The position numbers and the translations under genes are program-made. Shown here piece after piece: positions 25,577 to 34,665 of a stretch of DNA of 64,000 nucleotides. Positions within the stretch are counted from its first letter, which is position 1. Every line of letters starts with the position of its first letter. This stretch comes from Sediminibacterium sp. (GTDB lineage: Bacteria; Bacteroidota; Bacteroidia; Chitinophagales; Chitinophagaceae). The notes under the pieces are model-generated. The model was not told the DNA's origin and ran no database searches. It saw nothing but the letters and a program-made list of their open reading frames with translations. The stretch is from assembly GCA_017537025.1 (NCBI GenBank), contig JAFWCB010000002.1, forward strand, positions 248,001 through 312,000. Reading direction: 5' to 3'.

Positions 25577-25978
25577 ATGAAAAAAATGAGCCTCTATATT
25601 TTTCTGTCTATTATATGTGCTTGCAAAAAAGATTCTTCACAACAGCCAATAGTTGGGGAATGGGTTTGGTATTTAAATCGTACTAATAACCCTTATTATA
25701 ATACCACACCGCAGAGTACCGGTATTACTGAAATTTTAAAAATTCAAGCAAACGGCGAATATAACGTATTGATAAATAATCAAATTGAAAATACAGGAAC
25801 TTATAAACTAACATATGAAGTTGCTAACAACGGGTCAATAGTTAATAAAATCTTATATACTAATCAACGTATTATTGACTCTGTTGAATATTACGTTATA
25901 CAAAATGATACACTCAGATTTTCGTGGGGTTTAATTGGATCAGTTGGGTCTAGATCTAGATTTTATAAAAGGAAATAA
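25577..25978 (+). CDS. Small hypothetical lipoprotein
   Basis: Signal MKKMSLYIFLSIICAC with lipobox-like ICAC, then KKDSS and a 110-residue beta-rich domain (PIVGEWVWYLNRT, LKIQANGEYNVLINNQI, YYVIQNDTLRFSWG) typical of lipocalin-like small lipoproteins. No named family. It converges on the crtY-blh gene with 22 bp between the stops. Confidence 0.72.
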   Translation: MKKMSLYIFLSIICACKKDSSQQPIVGEWVWYLNRTNNPYYNTTPQSTGITEILKIQANGEYNVLINNQIENTGTYKLTYEVANNGSIVNKILYTNQRIIDSVEYYVIQNDTLRFSWGLIGSVGSRSRFYKRK

Positions 25979-26000
25979 TTTCAAATAGAAATGCTTATTG

Positions 26001-28013
26001 CTAAATATTTTTTTTATAAAAAATATGCATAGAAAAAATATGGGGTATGCTCATGCAGGATAATAGGATAAAGAAAAAGCCAAAGAATTGATTACTATAA
26101 AAAAAGGCTATGGTTGCAAAAAGTAGAATAGCCCCTAGTGTAAAAGGACCTGCTTTTTTAAAAAGTGCTAAGCTTTTCATACTAAGGTTTTCTTGTAGAA
26201 ATTTCCATCCATGTAAACTATGCTGAAAGCAGAAATAAATGCCAAAACTTAACATAATTGGTAACTTACTAGTTATCAATAAGTAGCTGATGGTAATAAG
26301 CATGGGTATCGATCGATGCTTATAAGCAAGGACCAAGCTTAGGAGAAGTGGGGTGAATTGCGAAAAATATAATAAATAGCTACTGGATGAAATGGATGAT
26401 TTGGGCAATAGTAAATGGGGGATCTGATTCAAAACATATACTGTTTCTTGAAAATGAAAAACTAAGATTAACAGCAGTACACAAAGCCCCCATAGTAGTG
26501 TGGCGAAGCTATTTTTTATGTGCCAAGCTGTGTAATCTGCTTGTCCGAAATGCCAAGCTGAAAATAAGATAAATCCAATTAAAGCTACGGTTGGTGCTAT
26601 CCACCAAAGTAAAGCAAATAGAAGCCCTTTTCCAATATATGTTGCAACGAATTGAAGAAGCGATTTTGAAGTAGTTATTTTTTTTTCTGTGAGATGATCG
26701 ATAGCTCCATGTGATAATCCAAATGTGAGAAATATAGCTGCTAATATCCCCCAAACTACACTTGTATATTCAAATCTGATAAGTAGTAAACTGAGTAACG
26801 AAAAAACAAGGGCAAGTACAGTAGGAGAAATATGTTTGTTACAATGCCAAATATCTTTTAGGGCTGCAGAAAGAAAAAGATTGATCGGTAACTTTGAAAA
26901 GATTATTGCTTCTTCCTTTATTGATGTACGCTCATCTAAAAACAATAATACTTTATGAATTGAAATATTATTAAATAAAGATTGAAAAATTGGTTTTCCT
27001 TTTTCCGGTTTCTCTTCTAAAATTTTTAATAATAGCCTATCATAAAAAAGGTATCTGTTTTTTTTACTTTTTCTATGGTAGTATATTTCTTCTTTTAGAG
27101 ACCTCGTAATGGCTATCGCATCTTCTACCATCGATTTAAAAGCATATCCCGTACTTGGTTTTAGCATTCCGCCTCTTGCTCCGGTATATATCCAATTTTC
27201 ATCCTGCAAAGGATTATTTAAAGAGGAAGTTGACATAGGAATTACTCCTTTTTCAACTTCGAGGGTTGTATAATTAATATTTTTTTTATTCAGGTATTCC
27301 TTTAATAGGATATTGGCTTCCGCTTCAGTGATGATCTCCTCGCTAAAACGGGTGAGTTCTACTAAAGCATGACACTGAGAGAATGGTAATACATAAATAA
27401 ATTGGCAAGTACTCATTTGATCTATTTCAAAATCCATTAATATGGCTGTTGATGGATCAAAATCGTTTTCGGTGGATTCAATTTTCCATCCTATAAAAGA
27501 TTGCCATAAATGACTTTGATTTCTTTGAGGATCTGCAAACTGTGGAGGCCTACTATCAAATACAGTATGAGCTAACAAAACTTGAGTTTCCAATGTAAAA
27601 ATAAATTTGTCAGCATTTTTTTCAGGGAATCTTTTATAAGGTTCAGTTATAATTTTGAGGTCATAATGATTGAGAATTGTTTGAGCTTGCTTATATAAGG
27701 AACCTCCCGGTATATGTGCATATTCTAAAGGCGTAATGGATTCTGAGGATTTATTATTTACGATTAAATTTTTCCATGCATTTGTAATACTATCATCTAA
27801 GCCAAGCTCTTTCATCTCTGTTTGAGTTCCCCAAAAGCAATATGTTTTTTTTAGAAGCGCGGTATGATCCGGATCAATGATGGCAATTTTTTTATTTGCG
27901 AGAAGCTGCTGCTTATGCATTTGTATCAATAACAAAGAGTTGGCAGCACCTAATCCCAGAAAAAGGTAGTCTATTGTTTGAATTTTCGTAGCAAATAAAT
28001 TTTCGGCGAGCAT
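26001..28013 (-). CDS. Lycopene beta-cyclase fused to Blh beta-carotene 15,15'-dioxygenase
   Basis: One 670-residue chain with two complete enzymes. Residues 1 to about 384 are a CrtY-type lycopene cyclase: dinucleotide-binding DYLFLGLGAANS, TYCFWGT, WQSFIGWKIE, and GARGGMLKPSTGYAFKSM. Residues about 395-670 are a polytopic Brp/Blh dioxygenase with all expected iron-ligand histidines: FGLSHGAIDH (His435, His440), AWHFGQAD (His488), CFQHSLHGW (His598, His601) and SIPHIFSMH (His658, His663). The first converts lycopene to beta-carotene; the second cleaves it to two retinals. Both parts are full length, with a junction of roughly ten residues (around base 26846). It follows the rhodopsin gene on the same strand by 99 bp. 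Start ATG at 28013; an in-frame TTG is adjacent upstream. Confidence 0.93.
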   Translation of the reverse strand: MLAENLFATKIQTIDYLFLGLGAANSLLLIQMHKQQLLANKKIAIIDPDHTALLKKTYCFWGTQTEMKELGLDDSITNAWKNLIVNNKSSESITPLEYAHIPGGSLYKQAQTILNHYDLKIITEPYKRFPEKNADKFIFTLETQVLLAHTVFDSRPPQFADPQRNQSHLWQSFIGWKIESTENDFDPSTAILMDFEIDQMSTCQFIYVLPFSQCHALVELTRFSEEIITEAEANILLKEYLNKKNINYTTLEVEKGVIPMSTSSLNNPLQDENWIYTGARGGMLKPSTGYAFKSMVEDAIAITRSLKEEIYYHRKSKKNRYLFYDRLLLKILEEKPEKGKPIFQSLFNNISIHKVLLFLDERTSIKEEAIIFSKLPINLFLSAALKDIWHCNKHISPTVLALVFSLLSLLLIRFEYTSVVWGILAAIFLTFGLSHGAIDHLTEKKITTSKSLLQFVATYIGKGLLFALLWWIAPTVALIGFILFSAWHFGQADYTAWHIKNSFATLLWGLCVLLLILVFHFQETVYVLNQIPHLLLPKSSISSSSYLLYFSQFTPLLLSLVLAYKHRSIPMLITISYLLITSKLPIMLSFGIYFCFQHSLHGWKFLQENLSMKSLALFKKAGPFTLGAILLFATIAFFYSNQFFGFFFILLSCMSIPHIFSMHIFYKKNI

Positions 28014-28055
28014 CAAATATAAAAGTTTGAAGAAATGAGTAACCTACTATAAACC

Positions 28056-28090
28056 AAAGGATGATACCCTATGGCAAAGTATCATCCTTT
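28056..28090 (-). terminator. Hairpin between rhodopsin and crtY-blh (terminator or attenuator)
   Basis: A 12-bp perfect stem (AAAGGATGATAC / GTATCATCCTTT) with an 11-nt loop lies 23 bp after the rhodopsin stop. On the minus strand it is followed by GGTTTATAG, a poor T-run, so partial read-through into crtY-blh is plausible. Confidence 0.65.
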
Positions 28091-28112
28091 AGTTATGTTA
28101 AGTAAAACCTGA

Positions 28113-28832
28113 TTAATTATCTGCGTTTCTACTTAAAGCATAAATAACTAACCCAAACCCTATTTTATTGATGGCATCAGCAATGTTATAAACAATATCC
28201 ATTGCATGAGAAGCAGCTGCAGGGTCTGCAACTAATTGCACGCCGAATAGACCGCCTGGTGTACCTAAAATATACCCTAATGGATAAATAGCCCAGCCAA
28301 CTAATACAAACCAAGCAAGAATACGAGTAGCTTTTGCTACTTGAGTACCGGCTGTATGAGCAAGCTTCGCAACTTCACCAAACCAAATTAAATATACAAT
28401 ATAGAAATAGGCGATACCTGAAATGACACCCCAAAGTACGCTGTGTGCGCGATCTAGTGTTTCTCCAAAGTAGCCTGTTACAAGCATTATTAAAGAAGCG
28501 AAGATCAACTTCCAAAGTAATCCGATCTTAGCTCCCGCTTTTTTTGTAATCAAATAAAACTCAACACACATTAAGGGTACTGTAAGAATCCAGTCTACAT
28601 AGCGGAAAAATGTGGGTGATTCGCCTGTTTCCAGATTGTAACCCCTCATGTAGTAGTAGTGAACTGCTGCAATGAAGGTAATAAGTCCAGAAACCAAAAC
28701 TGATGTGCGCCATTTTTGAGAAGTGTTATTCAACTCAAAAAAGAAAAAAACTGAGGCAGCCATCATGGCCATAGTTCCGATAAAGAACGTGAAAGCAACG
28801 TAATTGTCGCTTGCAATTTTTAAATGCTCCAT
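28113..28832 (-). CDS. Proteorhodopsin-type light-driven proton pump
   Basis: Seven-helix retinal protein of 239 residues. By recalled alignment to green proteorhodopsin: His58 (His75), proton acceptor Asp80 (Asp97) and Thr84 in RYVDWILTVPL, proton donor Glu91 (Glu108), and Lys223 in INKIGFGL for the retinal Schiff base. The DTE motif indicates an outward proton pump. Met88 occupies the spectral tuning site (Leu105), the usual green-tuned Bacteroidota residue. Gly135 in VLWGVISG occupies the place of Phe152, matching the glycine fenestration of carotenoid-binding xanthorhodopsins. I use ATG 28832 (MEHLKI); an upstream in-frame TTG at 28871 adds 13 unlikely residues. Retinal would come from the next gene. 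Confidence 0.96.
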   Translation of the reverse strand: MEHLKIASDNYVAFTFFIGTMAMMAASVFFFFELNNTSQKWRTSVLVSGLITFIAAVHYYYMRGYNLETGESPTFFRYVDWILTVPLMCVEFYLITKKAGAKIGLLWKLIFASLIMLVTGYFGETLDRAHSVLWGVISGIAYFYIVYLIWFGEVAKLAHTAGTQVAKATRILAWFVLVGWAIYPLGYILGTPGGLFGVQLVADPAAASHAMDIVYNIADAINKIGFGLVIYALSRNADN

Positions 28833-28844
28833 TTTTTTGTGTTT

Positions 28845-28865
28845 AATGTTATTTAATGAAACATT
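28845..28865. promoter_or_regulatory. Repeats in the rhodopsin leader
   Basis: Just upstream of the rhodopsin ATG, AATGTT (28845-28850) and AACATT (28860-28865) form an inverted repeat, and TTTAATG occurs at 28842 and 28852, a 10-bp spaced direct repeat. No canonical TAnnTTTG is seen for the rhodopsin in this 271-bp divergent region, so regulation may use another sigma factor; this is speculative. Confidence 0.3.
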
Positions 28866-29103
28866 AGACAAAAACCAGATTAAAATTGTTTATAAATTTT
28901 TAATTTTTTTTTAACACATCATATTTTTTTCTATTTCGAAGGTGATTTACGGCTCTGTATTAGTAGGATCTACAATAAAAAATTGATAAAACTAAATGGT
29001 TTACAAATTGTTATATATAGCATAATTCTTATTGGATAATCTGTTCAAGTAAAAAAAATAGTTTACCCAATTTATTAAACAAACTAAACATCATTATTTC
29101 AAT

Positions 29104-29733
29104 ATGATTTACGAACAGAATGATATTATTCAATTAGAAACCAGATATAGGGCCAACTTCATCAATTCCTTGGGTGGATTTAAAAGCGTTACACTTATTG
29201 GTACCAAAAGTGTTCAAGGGAACGACAATCTTGCCATTTTTAGCAGTTTATTTCATTTAGGTGCTAATCCGGCATTATGTGGTATCATTATTAGGCCAAA
29301 TGAGGAAAAACAAAATACATTGGGCAATATTGTTACAACCGGATTCTATACGATCAATCATATCGCACCCTCTTTTTTTAAAAAAGCGCACCAGTGTAGT
29401 GCTAAATATGAAGAAGGGGTCAGTGAGTTTAAAGAAGTAGGCTTAGAACCGGAATATATGGAAGGTATCGCAGCTCCTTTTGTAAAAGAAAGTCATATTA
29501 AGTTCGGGTGTGAGCTTGTTCAAAAAATTGATATTGAATGGAATGGTACTTATTTGATTATTGGAAAGATAATTAAAATAGTGGTGCCGGATGAATATAT
29601 AGCTGTTGATGGTTTTATAGATCTGGGAAAGGCACAAACCATTACTTGTAGTGGATTGGATAGTTATCATAGTACGCTACCACTAGCTAGATTATCCTAC
29701 GCGAAAGTAGATGAAGCAGTAAGAGAAATATAA
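29104..29733 (+). CDS. Flavin reductase-like protein (FMN-binding split barrel)
   Basis: Cytosolic split-barrel flavoprotein of 209 residues. The family shows in FKSVTLIGTKSVQGNDNLAIFSS near 25-45, the GIIIRPNEEKQNTLGNIVTTGFYTINH core and the late VDGFIDLGKAQTITCSGLDSYH. Such proteins reduce FMN for a partner oxygenase or use it directly; none is adjacent. It diverges from the rhodopsin and its stop overlaps the next start as TAATG, indicating translational coupling. Confidence 0.88.
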   Translation: MIYEQNDIIQLETRYRANFINSLGGFKSVTLIGTKSVQGNDNLAIFSSLFHLGANPALCGIIIRPNEEKQNTLGNIVTTGFYTINHIAPSFFKKAHQCSAKYEEGVSEFKEVGLEPEYMEGIAAPFVKESHIKFGCELVQKIDIEWNGTYLIIGKIIKIVVPDEYIAVDGFIDLGKAQTITCSGLDSYHSTLPLARLSYAKVDEAVREI

Positions 29734-33039: not shown

Positions 33040-34665
33040 ATGCACTGTAGTACAACTTATTTACCATACGCGGCAACGCATGCTTTCTCTTCTTTAGTAA
33101 CTGATTATTTAGCACAAGTACCTGCTATTACTGCTTTTCAACTACATGCACCTACCTATGAGGGTATTTCAGCAGCTATCGAAACCAGAAAAAAATACCT
33201 TGTTAATCGAAAGTTATTGGTAAATGCCTTACACAAACAATATACAGGATTATCAGTATCGGATCAGGTAGCCAATAATATCGAATTATTATTAGCAGAA
33301 AATACATTTACCATTACAACGGCTCACCAACCCAATATTTTTACCGGCCCACTTTATTTTATATATAAGATTTTACATACTGTAAAACTTTGTGAGGAGT
33401 TGAAAGAAAAATTTCCGTCAGAAAATTTTGTGCCGATTTATTATATGGGTAGTGAAGATGCCGATTTAGAAGAGCTTGGTTTTATTAATGCAGGGGATCA
33501 ACACTTAATTTGGGAAACCAAGCAAGAAGGTGCAGTTGGCAGAATGAAGGTTGATAAGCCTTTGCTTAAAATACTGGGAGACTTGGAAAGGCAGATAGCC
33601 GTTCTACCTCATGGTACAGCATGGATAACCCTATTAAGAAACTGCTATACGGAGGGTAAAACAATCCAGCAAGCTACTTTAGAATTGGTAAATGAATTAT
33701 TTGGTAAATATGGAGTAGTAGTAGTAATCCCTGATAATGCAGAACTTAAGTCATTATTTAGGTTAACCGTAGAAAAGGAATTGGTAGAAAAATTTTCTGA
33801 ATCTATTGTCGCAGAAACTACGCTTGAGTTAGCTAAGCATTATAAAGTACAGGCTGCCGGCAGACCCATCAATTTGTTTTATCTGATAGATGATAAGCGG
33901 GAAAGGATTGAGGTTGAAGGAGAAAGGGATAAGGAGGAAGGTATAAGGTATAAGGTGAAAGGTTTAGGGTTGAGTTTTACACAGGAAGAAATATTGAAGG
34001 AATTGTATGAGCACCCTGAACGATTCAGTGCAAATGTTATTTTACGGGGGGTATTTCAAGGAACCATATTACCAGATATTGCATTTATTGGGGGTGGGGG
34101 CGAACTGGCATATTGGCTAGAGCTAAAAAATGTTTTTGCAGCAGCAGGCGTACCTTATCCTGTGCTTATTTTGAGAAATTCTTTTGTTTTCATAGAACCG
34201 TTGGTTAATGAACGTATTCAAAAACAACATTTAAGCGATAATGATTTATTTGAAACGGAATTAACACTCATCAATGCTTTAGTTACAAAAAATACAAAGC
34301 AGCAACTTCGTTTGTCTGAGCAAATAGAGCAGGTGAAATTGCAATACCAATTTATACAAATGCTAGCAGCGGGCGTGGATAAGAGTTTAGTAGAACATGC
34401 AAAATCCTTGGAAGCCAGAACTGTTAAGCTTTTAGCAGGATTAGAGAAAAAAATATTTAGAGCCGAGAAGAGAAAATATGAAACAGATATTCAGCAAATT
34501 CAATTTATAAAGAAATCACTCTTCCCTGCAAATAGTTTGCAAGAGCGTCATCAGAATATAGCGTTATTCTATGCTAAGTATGGCCCCGGTTTCATAGATA
34601 GTATTTATAAAGCTTCAACAGGCTTAGCACAGGAATTTTGTGTGGTTAAGTATATTGGTAAGTAA
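33040..34665 (+). CDS. bshC: Bacillithiol biosynthesis cysteine-adding enzyme BshC
   Basis: Putative cysteine ligase completing bacillithiol, the low-molecular-weight thiol of Firmicutes and many Bacteroidota. Signatures: ITTAHQPNIFTGPLYFIYK, VPIYYMGSEDADLEELGF and ERFSANVILRG. The 541-residue length is close to the family norm. Around residues 288-311 (EVEGERDKEEGIRYKVKG) the coding DNA is a perfect 7-nt periodic array and the charged loop appears about ten residues longer than in relatives I remember. The stop codon sits in a hairpin shared with the convergent PBP gene. Confidence 0.92.
   Translation: MHCSTTYLPYAATHAFSSLVTDYLAQVPAITAFQLHAPTYEGISAAIETRKKYLVNRKLLVNALHKQYTGLSVSDQVANNIELLLAENTFTITTAHQPNIFTGPLYFIYKILHTVKLCEELKEKFPSENFVPIYYMGSEDADLEELGFINAGDQHLIWETKQEGAVGRMKVDKPLLKILGDLERQIAVLPHGTAWITLLRNCYTEGKTIQQATLELVNELFGKYGVVVVIPDNAELKSLFRLTVEKELVEKFSESIVAETTLELAKHYKVQAAGRPINLFYLIDDKRERIEVEGERDKEEGIRYKVKGLGLSFTQEEILKELYEHPERFSANVILRGVFQGTILPDIAFIGGGGELAYWLELKNVFAAAGVPYPVLILRNSFVFIEPLVNERIQKQHLSDNDLFETELTLINALVTKNTKQQLRLSEQIEQVKLQYQFIQMLAAGVDKSLVEHAKSLEARTVKLLAGLEKKIFRAEKRKYETDIQQIQFIKKSLFPANSLQERHQNIALFYAKYGPGFIDSIYKASTGLAQEFCVVKYIGK
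33903..33972. repeat. 7-nt periodic word array inside bshC
   Basis: AAGG begins at 33903, 33917, 33924, 33931, 33938, 33945, 33952 and 33959, with GAGG at 33910 and AGGG at 33966: ten consecutive 7-nt units. Seven is not a multiple of three, so the translation repeats only every 21 nt, yet no stop codon occurs in frame. The same kind of array otherwise occurs between genes. Confidence 0.9.

Follow-up and report, generated by a model that had tools for sequence, protein, structure and literature searches.

A predicted bifunctional CrtY-Blh fusion beside a proteorhodopsin-type gene represents a conserved family in Bacteroidota

The window analysed here is a 64,000-nucleotide stretch of Sediminibacterium sp. 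(contig JAFWCB010000002.1, assembly GCA_017537025.1), whose minus strand carries a type-1 rhodopsin gene and, starting 99 nt after the rhodopsin stop codon, a gene in which a lycopene cyclase and a beta-carotene dioxygenase share a single reading frame. The features of the locus, in window coordinates, are the following:

28113..28832, minus strand: type-1 rhodopsin gene, 239 aa, ATG at 28832 (an upstream TTG is given in the list of open reading frames), PF01036 with E 7.2e-43
28052..28094, minus strand: hairpin in the gap that separates the two genes, with a stem of 20 bp
26001..28013, minus strand: CrtY-Blh fusion gene, 670 aa, ATG at 28013, stop at 26001-26003, with full-length fused relatives
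26880..27971, minus strand: CrtY-type lycopene cyclase domain, residues 15-378, PF05834 with E 5.3e-42
26826..26879, minus strand: junction, residues 379-396, leading from the last cyclase helix to the first membrane helix
26022..26732, minus strand: Blh/Brp beta-carotene 15,15'-dioxygenase domain, residues 428-664, a multi-helix membrane domain, PF15461

Elsewhere in the window, part of a long ORF at 33040-34665 (about residues 286-310) is charged and resembles a repeat; it may be an inserted repeat that is translated.

The first-pass annotation had described an uninterrupted 670-codon frame joining CrtY to Blh beside a rhodopsin, with the junction near base 26846. ORF, Pfam and NCBIfam analyses confirm the frame and place it on the minus strand, the PF01036 gene immediately precedes it in the same orientation, and base 26846 is correctly placed, at about residue 390. 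Both domains are recovered well above their Pfam cut-offs, the cyclase with 144.7 bits (cut-off 23.4) and the dioxygenase with 112.4 bits (E 3.8e-32, cut-off 28), and the chain scores 124.3 bits on the Brp/Blh subfamily model TIGR03753, exceeding its cut-off of 95.25. The cyclase half misses the cut-off of the NCBIfam CrtY equivalog TIGR01789 (64.2 versus 215.2 bits); since the CrtY encoded in the pigment cluster of the same genome also falls below it, with 49.2 bits, this model seems not to cover the present CrtY branch. Pfam returned PF05834 and PF15461 only and NCBIfam the cyclase and Blh only, with no CrtYc/d-type cyclase, CrtI or CrtB domain in the chain. A bifunctional CrtY-Blh chain beside a rhodopsin is thus, as a prediction from sequence, well supported.

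Across 52 fusions, 39 columns of the cyclase half, including E219, show no variation, and G20 and G22 are likewise present in all 52; we take G20 and G22 to be nucleotide-binding glycines and E219 to be the conserved acidic residue of CrtY-type cyclases. The earlier claim that all CrtY motifs are present goes a little too far, as the window copy has T51 (K in 49/52 fusions) and K55 (D in 50/52). Residues 51-55 correspond to window positions 27849-27863 on the minus strand, and the nearest relative, G072, likewise lacks D55. Concerning the dioxygenase half, seven histidines had been put forward as conserved, and an alignment of Blh sequences (84 rows from fusions and 26 from unfused genes), with near-duplicates left in, separates them into two groups. 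H435, H488, H598 and H658 are general, being found in 84/84 fused rows (83 for residue 658, with one gap) and in 26/26 unfused ones, while the other three are not: residue 440 is a histidine in 78/84 fused and 10/26 unfused rows, residue 663 in 41/84 and 11/26, and residue 601 in just 4 of 52 fusions. H520, absent from the original list, is conserved in 82/84 fused and 18/26 unfused rows. Both halves are under purifying selection, with dN/dS values of 0.09-0.27 for the cyclase and 0.08-0.39 for the Blh half in 19 pairs of related fusions, none of which includes the copy of the window (20 non-overlapping pairs were drawn, and the twentieth was saturated).

An AlphaFold2 model built on an alignment of 52 fusions depicts the protein as a confident single piece (mean pLDDT 91.6, pTM 0.79). 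Across the junction, 10-residue pLDDT means range from 84 to 97 and two helices are modelled at residues 377-394 and 397-413, so that no disordered linker is predicted between the cyclase and dioxygenase halves. The spacing between F380 and H435 is nearly constant, with 51-60 residues in the 52 fusions. In a Foldseek search, flavoproteins, FAD-dependent geranylgeranyl reductases among them, are the top-ranking solved structures and match the front half; the 50 matches inspected out of 1215 are all, by title, flavoproteins or FAD enzymes, and none of these 50 matches the Blh half. A phmmer search with E up to 1 returned no solved relative of the chain. The charges of the loops mostly favour a cytoplasmic location of the cyclase tail and of the C-terminus, although the loop 437-448, expected to be cytoplasmic, is net negative and speaks against that topology.

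The N-terminus of the neighbouring rhodopsin, counted from the ATG at 28832, is shared with its relatives. Its best solved matches, 9jov and 9jou, are titled "Proteorhodopsin", and the D, T and E residues of its helix C align with those of proteorhodopsins, residues that we take to be of the proton-pump type. On the PF01036 match and these helix-C residues, the neighbour is assigned as proteorhodopsin-type and is predicted to be a proton pump. The association extends well beyond the window: the available sequence of 44 of 80 loci includes a rhodopsin (upstream in the same orientation in 34, downstream in 8 and divergent in 2), and that of the other 36 shows none, of which 14 have more than 5 kb on both flanks and 22 have shorter flanks. 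In 50 of the genomes carrying these loci, which were chosen rather than drawn at random and whose completeness is not given, a search of the whole genome found a rhodopsin in 47, versus 27 of 198 genomes sampled from the phylum, some fusion carriers being among these; in the remaining 3 of the 50, again with completeness not given, no rhodopsin was found.

The gap between the two genes (28014-28112) has a fold z-score of -5.68. A strong hairpin, defined by a stem of at least 9 bp with 3 GC, occurs at the rhodopsin-fusion gap in 34 of 37 fusion loci versus 11 of 120 other same-strand gaps there, and in 2.6% of 1300 shuffles. Strong hairpins also occur in this place in 7/7 unfused crtY-blh operons with an upstream rhodopsin and in 18/21 rhodopsin-blh pairs. 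A T-rich tail follows the hairpin in 18 of the 37 fusion loci, and the copy of the window has 3 T in 9 positions; this tail is not T-rich, and the terminator scan does not list the hairpin of the window. Scanning 25700-29300 gave no excess of either signal, with 12 sigma-70 matches against 16.6 in shuffles and 3 terminators against 2.3. The hairpin may be read from sequence as an attenuator, a leaky terminator or a processing site, the likeliest reading being a leaky terminator or processing site that would let the rhodopsin outnumber the enzyme. In Dokdonia, in which the genes are unfused, crtY and blh are weakly expressed according to the available excerpt of PMC3587595.

The fusion is a conserved family and not a one-off. 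In a scan of named genomes, both domains lie in one frame in 80 of 80 loci, these being the best 80 of 202 relatives; the figure is a lower bound, and 4 of the 80 frames reach the edge of the available sequence. The fused homologues are 33-46% identical to the copy of the window. Nearly all the loci come from metagenome-assembled genomes with titles that are mostly of Bacteroidota, with a few placeholder-like ones (one Streptomyces griseus), and titles mentioning pond, LacPavin, TMED and FRAM18 suggest that the carriers live in lakes, ponds and the sea. Within the family of the window, a Blh above the cut-off was detected in 37 of the 394 genomes searched, and the gene is fused in 4 of them (G000, which is the genome of the window, G072, G017 and G115), while in the other 33 it is not, in agreement with the earlier statement that crtY and blh are usually separate. 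A phylum sample yielded a one-frame fusion in 5 of 395 genomes (G000, G590, G606, G700 and G431). Pattern matches in viral contigs came to 49 stretches, none of them confirmed. Both joined enzymes and their genomic context are known, and the fusion is commoner than the first-pass annotation had assumed. Also in the phylum sample, crtY and blh share a frame at locus L148 of genome G511 and are separated by a single TGA; the rhodopsin of this genome is on another contig.

Phylogenies indicate that the fusions are essentially one clade in Bacteroidota, with one Blh-only gene nested in it. In the CrtY tree of 45 dereplicated rows, they form a single clade with an SH-aLRT support of 98, which rises to 100 in a tree of 52 rows with fewer outgroups. 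In the Blh tree, the clade comprises the fusions and the Blh-only gene L055 (support 99), and a more careful Blh tree, with 21 fusions among 38 rows, recovers the same grouping with 100/98. In the latter, L055, which is accompanied by a rhodopsin in genome G056, is sister to the fusions of G017 and G115 (100/99). Genome G056 has no CrtY above the cut-off and carries a CrtYcd-type cyclase; since L055 nests within the fusion clade and this other cyclase is present, loss of the cyclase half is the simplest account of this gene. Forcing the Blh halves of the fusions into one group that leaves out L055 gave a borderline p-AU of 0.045, and an independent fusion in the lineage of G017 may have taken place. 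A local re-fusion in the family of the window is not supported, given that the window copy is nested within the fusion clade at large. In the CrtY tree, the CrtY of the unfused rhodopsin-crtY-blh operon L149 (genome G533) branches as the sister of the fusions as a whole (98), whereas the Blh of this operon is on a long branch and is not sister to them in the Blh trees.

Unfused crtY-blh pairs, found in several other families, reveal how near the two genes already stand. In 17 of 26 such pairs, a candidate blh start lies between 1 base before and 6 bases after the crtY stop; 7 more overlap by 10-34 bases and 2 start 13-23 bases further on, the candidate starts being unproven and mostly ATG, with a few GTG or TTG. 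As the blh start is so close to the crtY stop in those 17 pairs, little change separates coupled genes from a fused one, and the arrangement points to translational coupling as the putative state that preceded it.

Most of the carriers searched have a further lycopene cyclase. Among the 50 genomes searched whole, the fusion is the sole Blh found in 49 and one has a second Blh; a second strong stand-alone CrtY (above 100 bits) occurs in 4 and a CrtYcd-type cyclase in 37, with no overlap between the two sets, so that another cyclase of either type is present in 41 and the fusion is the only one of these two types in 9. An argument that the fusion is active because it is the sole cyclase, advanced for G017 and G115 on the CrtY type, was discarded, as G017 has a CrtYcd-type cyclase. 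The genome of the window has its own pigment cluster (L197, G000:C19:403000-420000), with the other CrtY (PF05834) at its end. It includes a CrtID-type desaturase, a phytoene/squalene synthase-family protein (CrtB), a NUDIX protein, CrtD, a CruF-like hydratase and a 160-aa CrtZ-like ORF. At its head stand an ECF sigma factor and a MerR-B12 regulator, the latter presumably a light sensor like CarH.

The 160-aa ORF (L197:7319-7798, minus strand) has no Pfam match at E 0.001 and chance-level ones only at E up to 5, no NCBIfam match and, for the one homologue tested, no solved relative; we name it CrtZ-like on its histidine motifs, and published clusters of like order also make it a candidate CrtZ. 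Across 21 chosen pigment-cyclase regions (18 CrtYcd regions of the 50 genomes, together with those of G072, G017 and the genome of the window), a CrtZ-like ORF lies near the second cyclase in 18 and a CruF-like gene in 14. Retinal requires an unhydroxylated ring, and a separate fused cyclase-dioxygenase would therefore protect its supply; in the 7 regions with no CruF-like gene, such insulation could accordingly rest on CrtZ alone. The effect of such neighbours is documented in the available excerpts of two studies: in Escherichia coli, crtY of Nonlabens spongiae alone leads to beta-carotene, and crtY with cruF leads mainly to the monocyclic 1'-hydroxy-gamma-carotene (PMC11855829), and Algoriphagus strains with homology-predicted cruF-crtD-crtYcd-crtZ genes make the monocyclic flexixanthin (PMC10784355).

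The explanation that we favour, and regard as highly probable, is that the fusion is a dedicated lycopene-to-retinal enzyme that stands apart from the pigment pathway and originated by the joining of coupled crtY and blh genes. Judging from the families of the two halves, the FAD-dependent cytoplasmic cyclase half would close both rings of lycopene to give beta-carotene, which the iron-dependent membrane half would split with oxygen into two retinals, and this retinal would feed the rhodopsin encoded just upstream. The fusion would then constitute a retinal branch separate from the pigment pathway, in which the hydroxylase-like and hydratase-like neighbours of the pigment cyclase would divert beta-carotene or its precursor. 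In its favour are the Pfam scores of both domains, the clade formed by the fusions, the low dN/dS of both halves, the association with rhodopsin, the fusion being the sole Blh found in 49 of 50 genomes, the second cyclase in 41 of them with its CrtZ-like and CruF-like neighbours, the Nonlabens spongiae result, the confident one-piece model and most of the loop charges. Against it weigh the shortfall of the cyclase half on TIGR01789 (shared by the pigment-cluster CrtY), the altered residues 51 and 55 of the window copy, the apparent dispensability of the cyclase half in G056, the genomes and loci in which no rhodopsin was found, the 7 regions with no CruF-like gene and the net negative loop 437-448. 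Beyond the activities themselves, we infer effects on substrate flow, on insulation or channelling, and on expression level; the fixed 1:1 ratio put forward in the first-pass annotation is likewise putative. The boldest form of this idea applies to cells in which the pigment pathway turns carotenoids into monocyclic xanthophylls by hydration and hydroxylation. There the fusion would act as a natural metabolic insulator that completes both ring closure and cleavage ahead of any attack by CruF or CrtZ, so that a scarce enzyme behind a transcription attenuator supplies an abundant rhodopsin; this is held tentatively, with somewhat less than even confidence.

The insulating role, and not the enzymatic activities, is contested by a simpler account, in which the fusion is bifunctional but has no physical effect, being a remnant of gene coupling that holds expression fixed and releases beta-carotene to the membrane with neither channelling nor insulation. 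This account is a serious possibility that falls somewhat short of probable: it is consistent with the abutting or overlapping starts of the unfused pairs (17 of 26, and 7 more), with the presence of such pairs in several other families and with the one lineage that apparently reverted to Blh alone, whereas the persistence of the fused form over the deep divergence noted above and the near-constant F380-H435 distance argue against it. If instead the Blh half alone worked, the cyclase half being dead or regulatory and the second cyclase providing beta-carotene, the other cyclases in 41 of the 50 genomes, the apparent loss in G056 and the altered residues 51 and 55 would be easily accommodated; this is nevertheless unlikely in view of the low dN/dS of the cyclase half (in pairs that leave aside the window copy), its 39 invariant columns and the 9 genomes in which a search for both types revealed no further cyclase. 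It is very unlikely that the substrates are monocyclic or hydroxylated carotenoids, with another apocarotenoid produced besides or instead of retinal: the CruF-like, CrtD and CrtZ-like genes of the genome's own pigment cluster, and similar ones in other carriers, would suit such a scheme, and against it stand the Brp/Blh subfamily score and the strong association with rhodopsin, which uses retinal. Lastly, a sequencing or assembly artefact, for which nothing was found in favour, has a negligible probability and is rejected because the independent copies from other records, the best 80 of 202 relatives, are all fused, with no stop or frameshift at the junction and with a conserved junction length.

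Rhodopsin function depends on the supply of retinal, and the dedicated lycopene-to-retinal enzyme, if true, would account for the second lycopene cyclase retained in many carriers and would offer a ready single-chain part for engineering. As both fused and unfused homologues exist, the fusion would be a clean natural case for the study of substrate hand-over between membrane enzymes. Moreover, gene surveys that presume separate crtY and blh can misread genomes with the fusion.

With respect to known systems, searches of open-licence PubMed Central showed no bacterial CrtY-Blh fusion among the papers listed and the excerpts consulted, which is weak evidence that none has been described; the earlier remark that no such fusion had been described holds to this extent, and its object is not private to the genome of the window, given at least 80 named loci. 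Excerpts of PMC2668756, PMC12710018 and PMC13043013 mention blh with no CrtY-Blh fusion, and in that of Klassen 2010 (PMC2889829), fungal CrtYcd is fused to phytoene synthase and no CrtY-Blh type is seen. The nearest known case, in the accessible part of PMC10016063, is the four-enzyme CrtI-CrtB-CrtYc/d-Blh fusion of the protist Thecamonas trahens, which likewise combines a lycopene cyclase with a C-terminal Blh in one polypeptide, but which belongs to a eukaryote, employs a CrtYc/d-type cyclase instead of CrtY and includes CrtI and CrtB. In the marine flavobacterium Dokdonia (excerpt of PMC3587595), the stand-alone Brp/Blh beside proteorhodopsin similarly makes retinal, while crtY is a separate gene. 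The CrtY of Nonlabens spongiae (excerpt of PMC11855829) and the CrtY on contig G000:C19 of the genome of the window are cyclases of the same CrtY type, but they are unfused and lie among CruF, CrtD, CrtZ or similar genes. Closest in composition are the separate neighbouring crtY-blh genes of Bacteroidota (L007, L021 and L149, with an upstream rhodopsin, and others), which share the families and the gene order of the fusion and differ from it in encoding two proteins; in most of the 26 pairs, the crtY stop either overlaps the blh start or is separated from it by a few bases.
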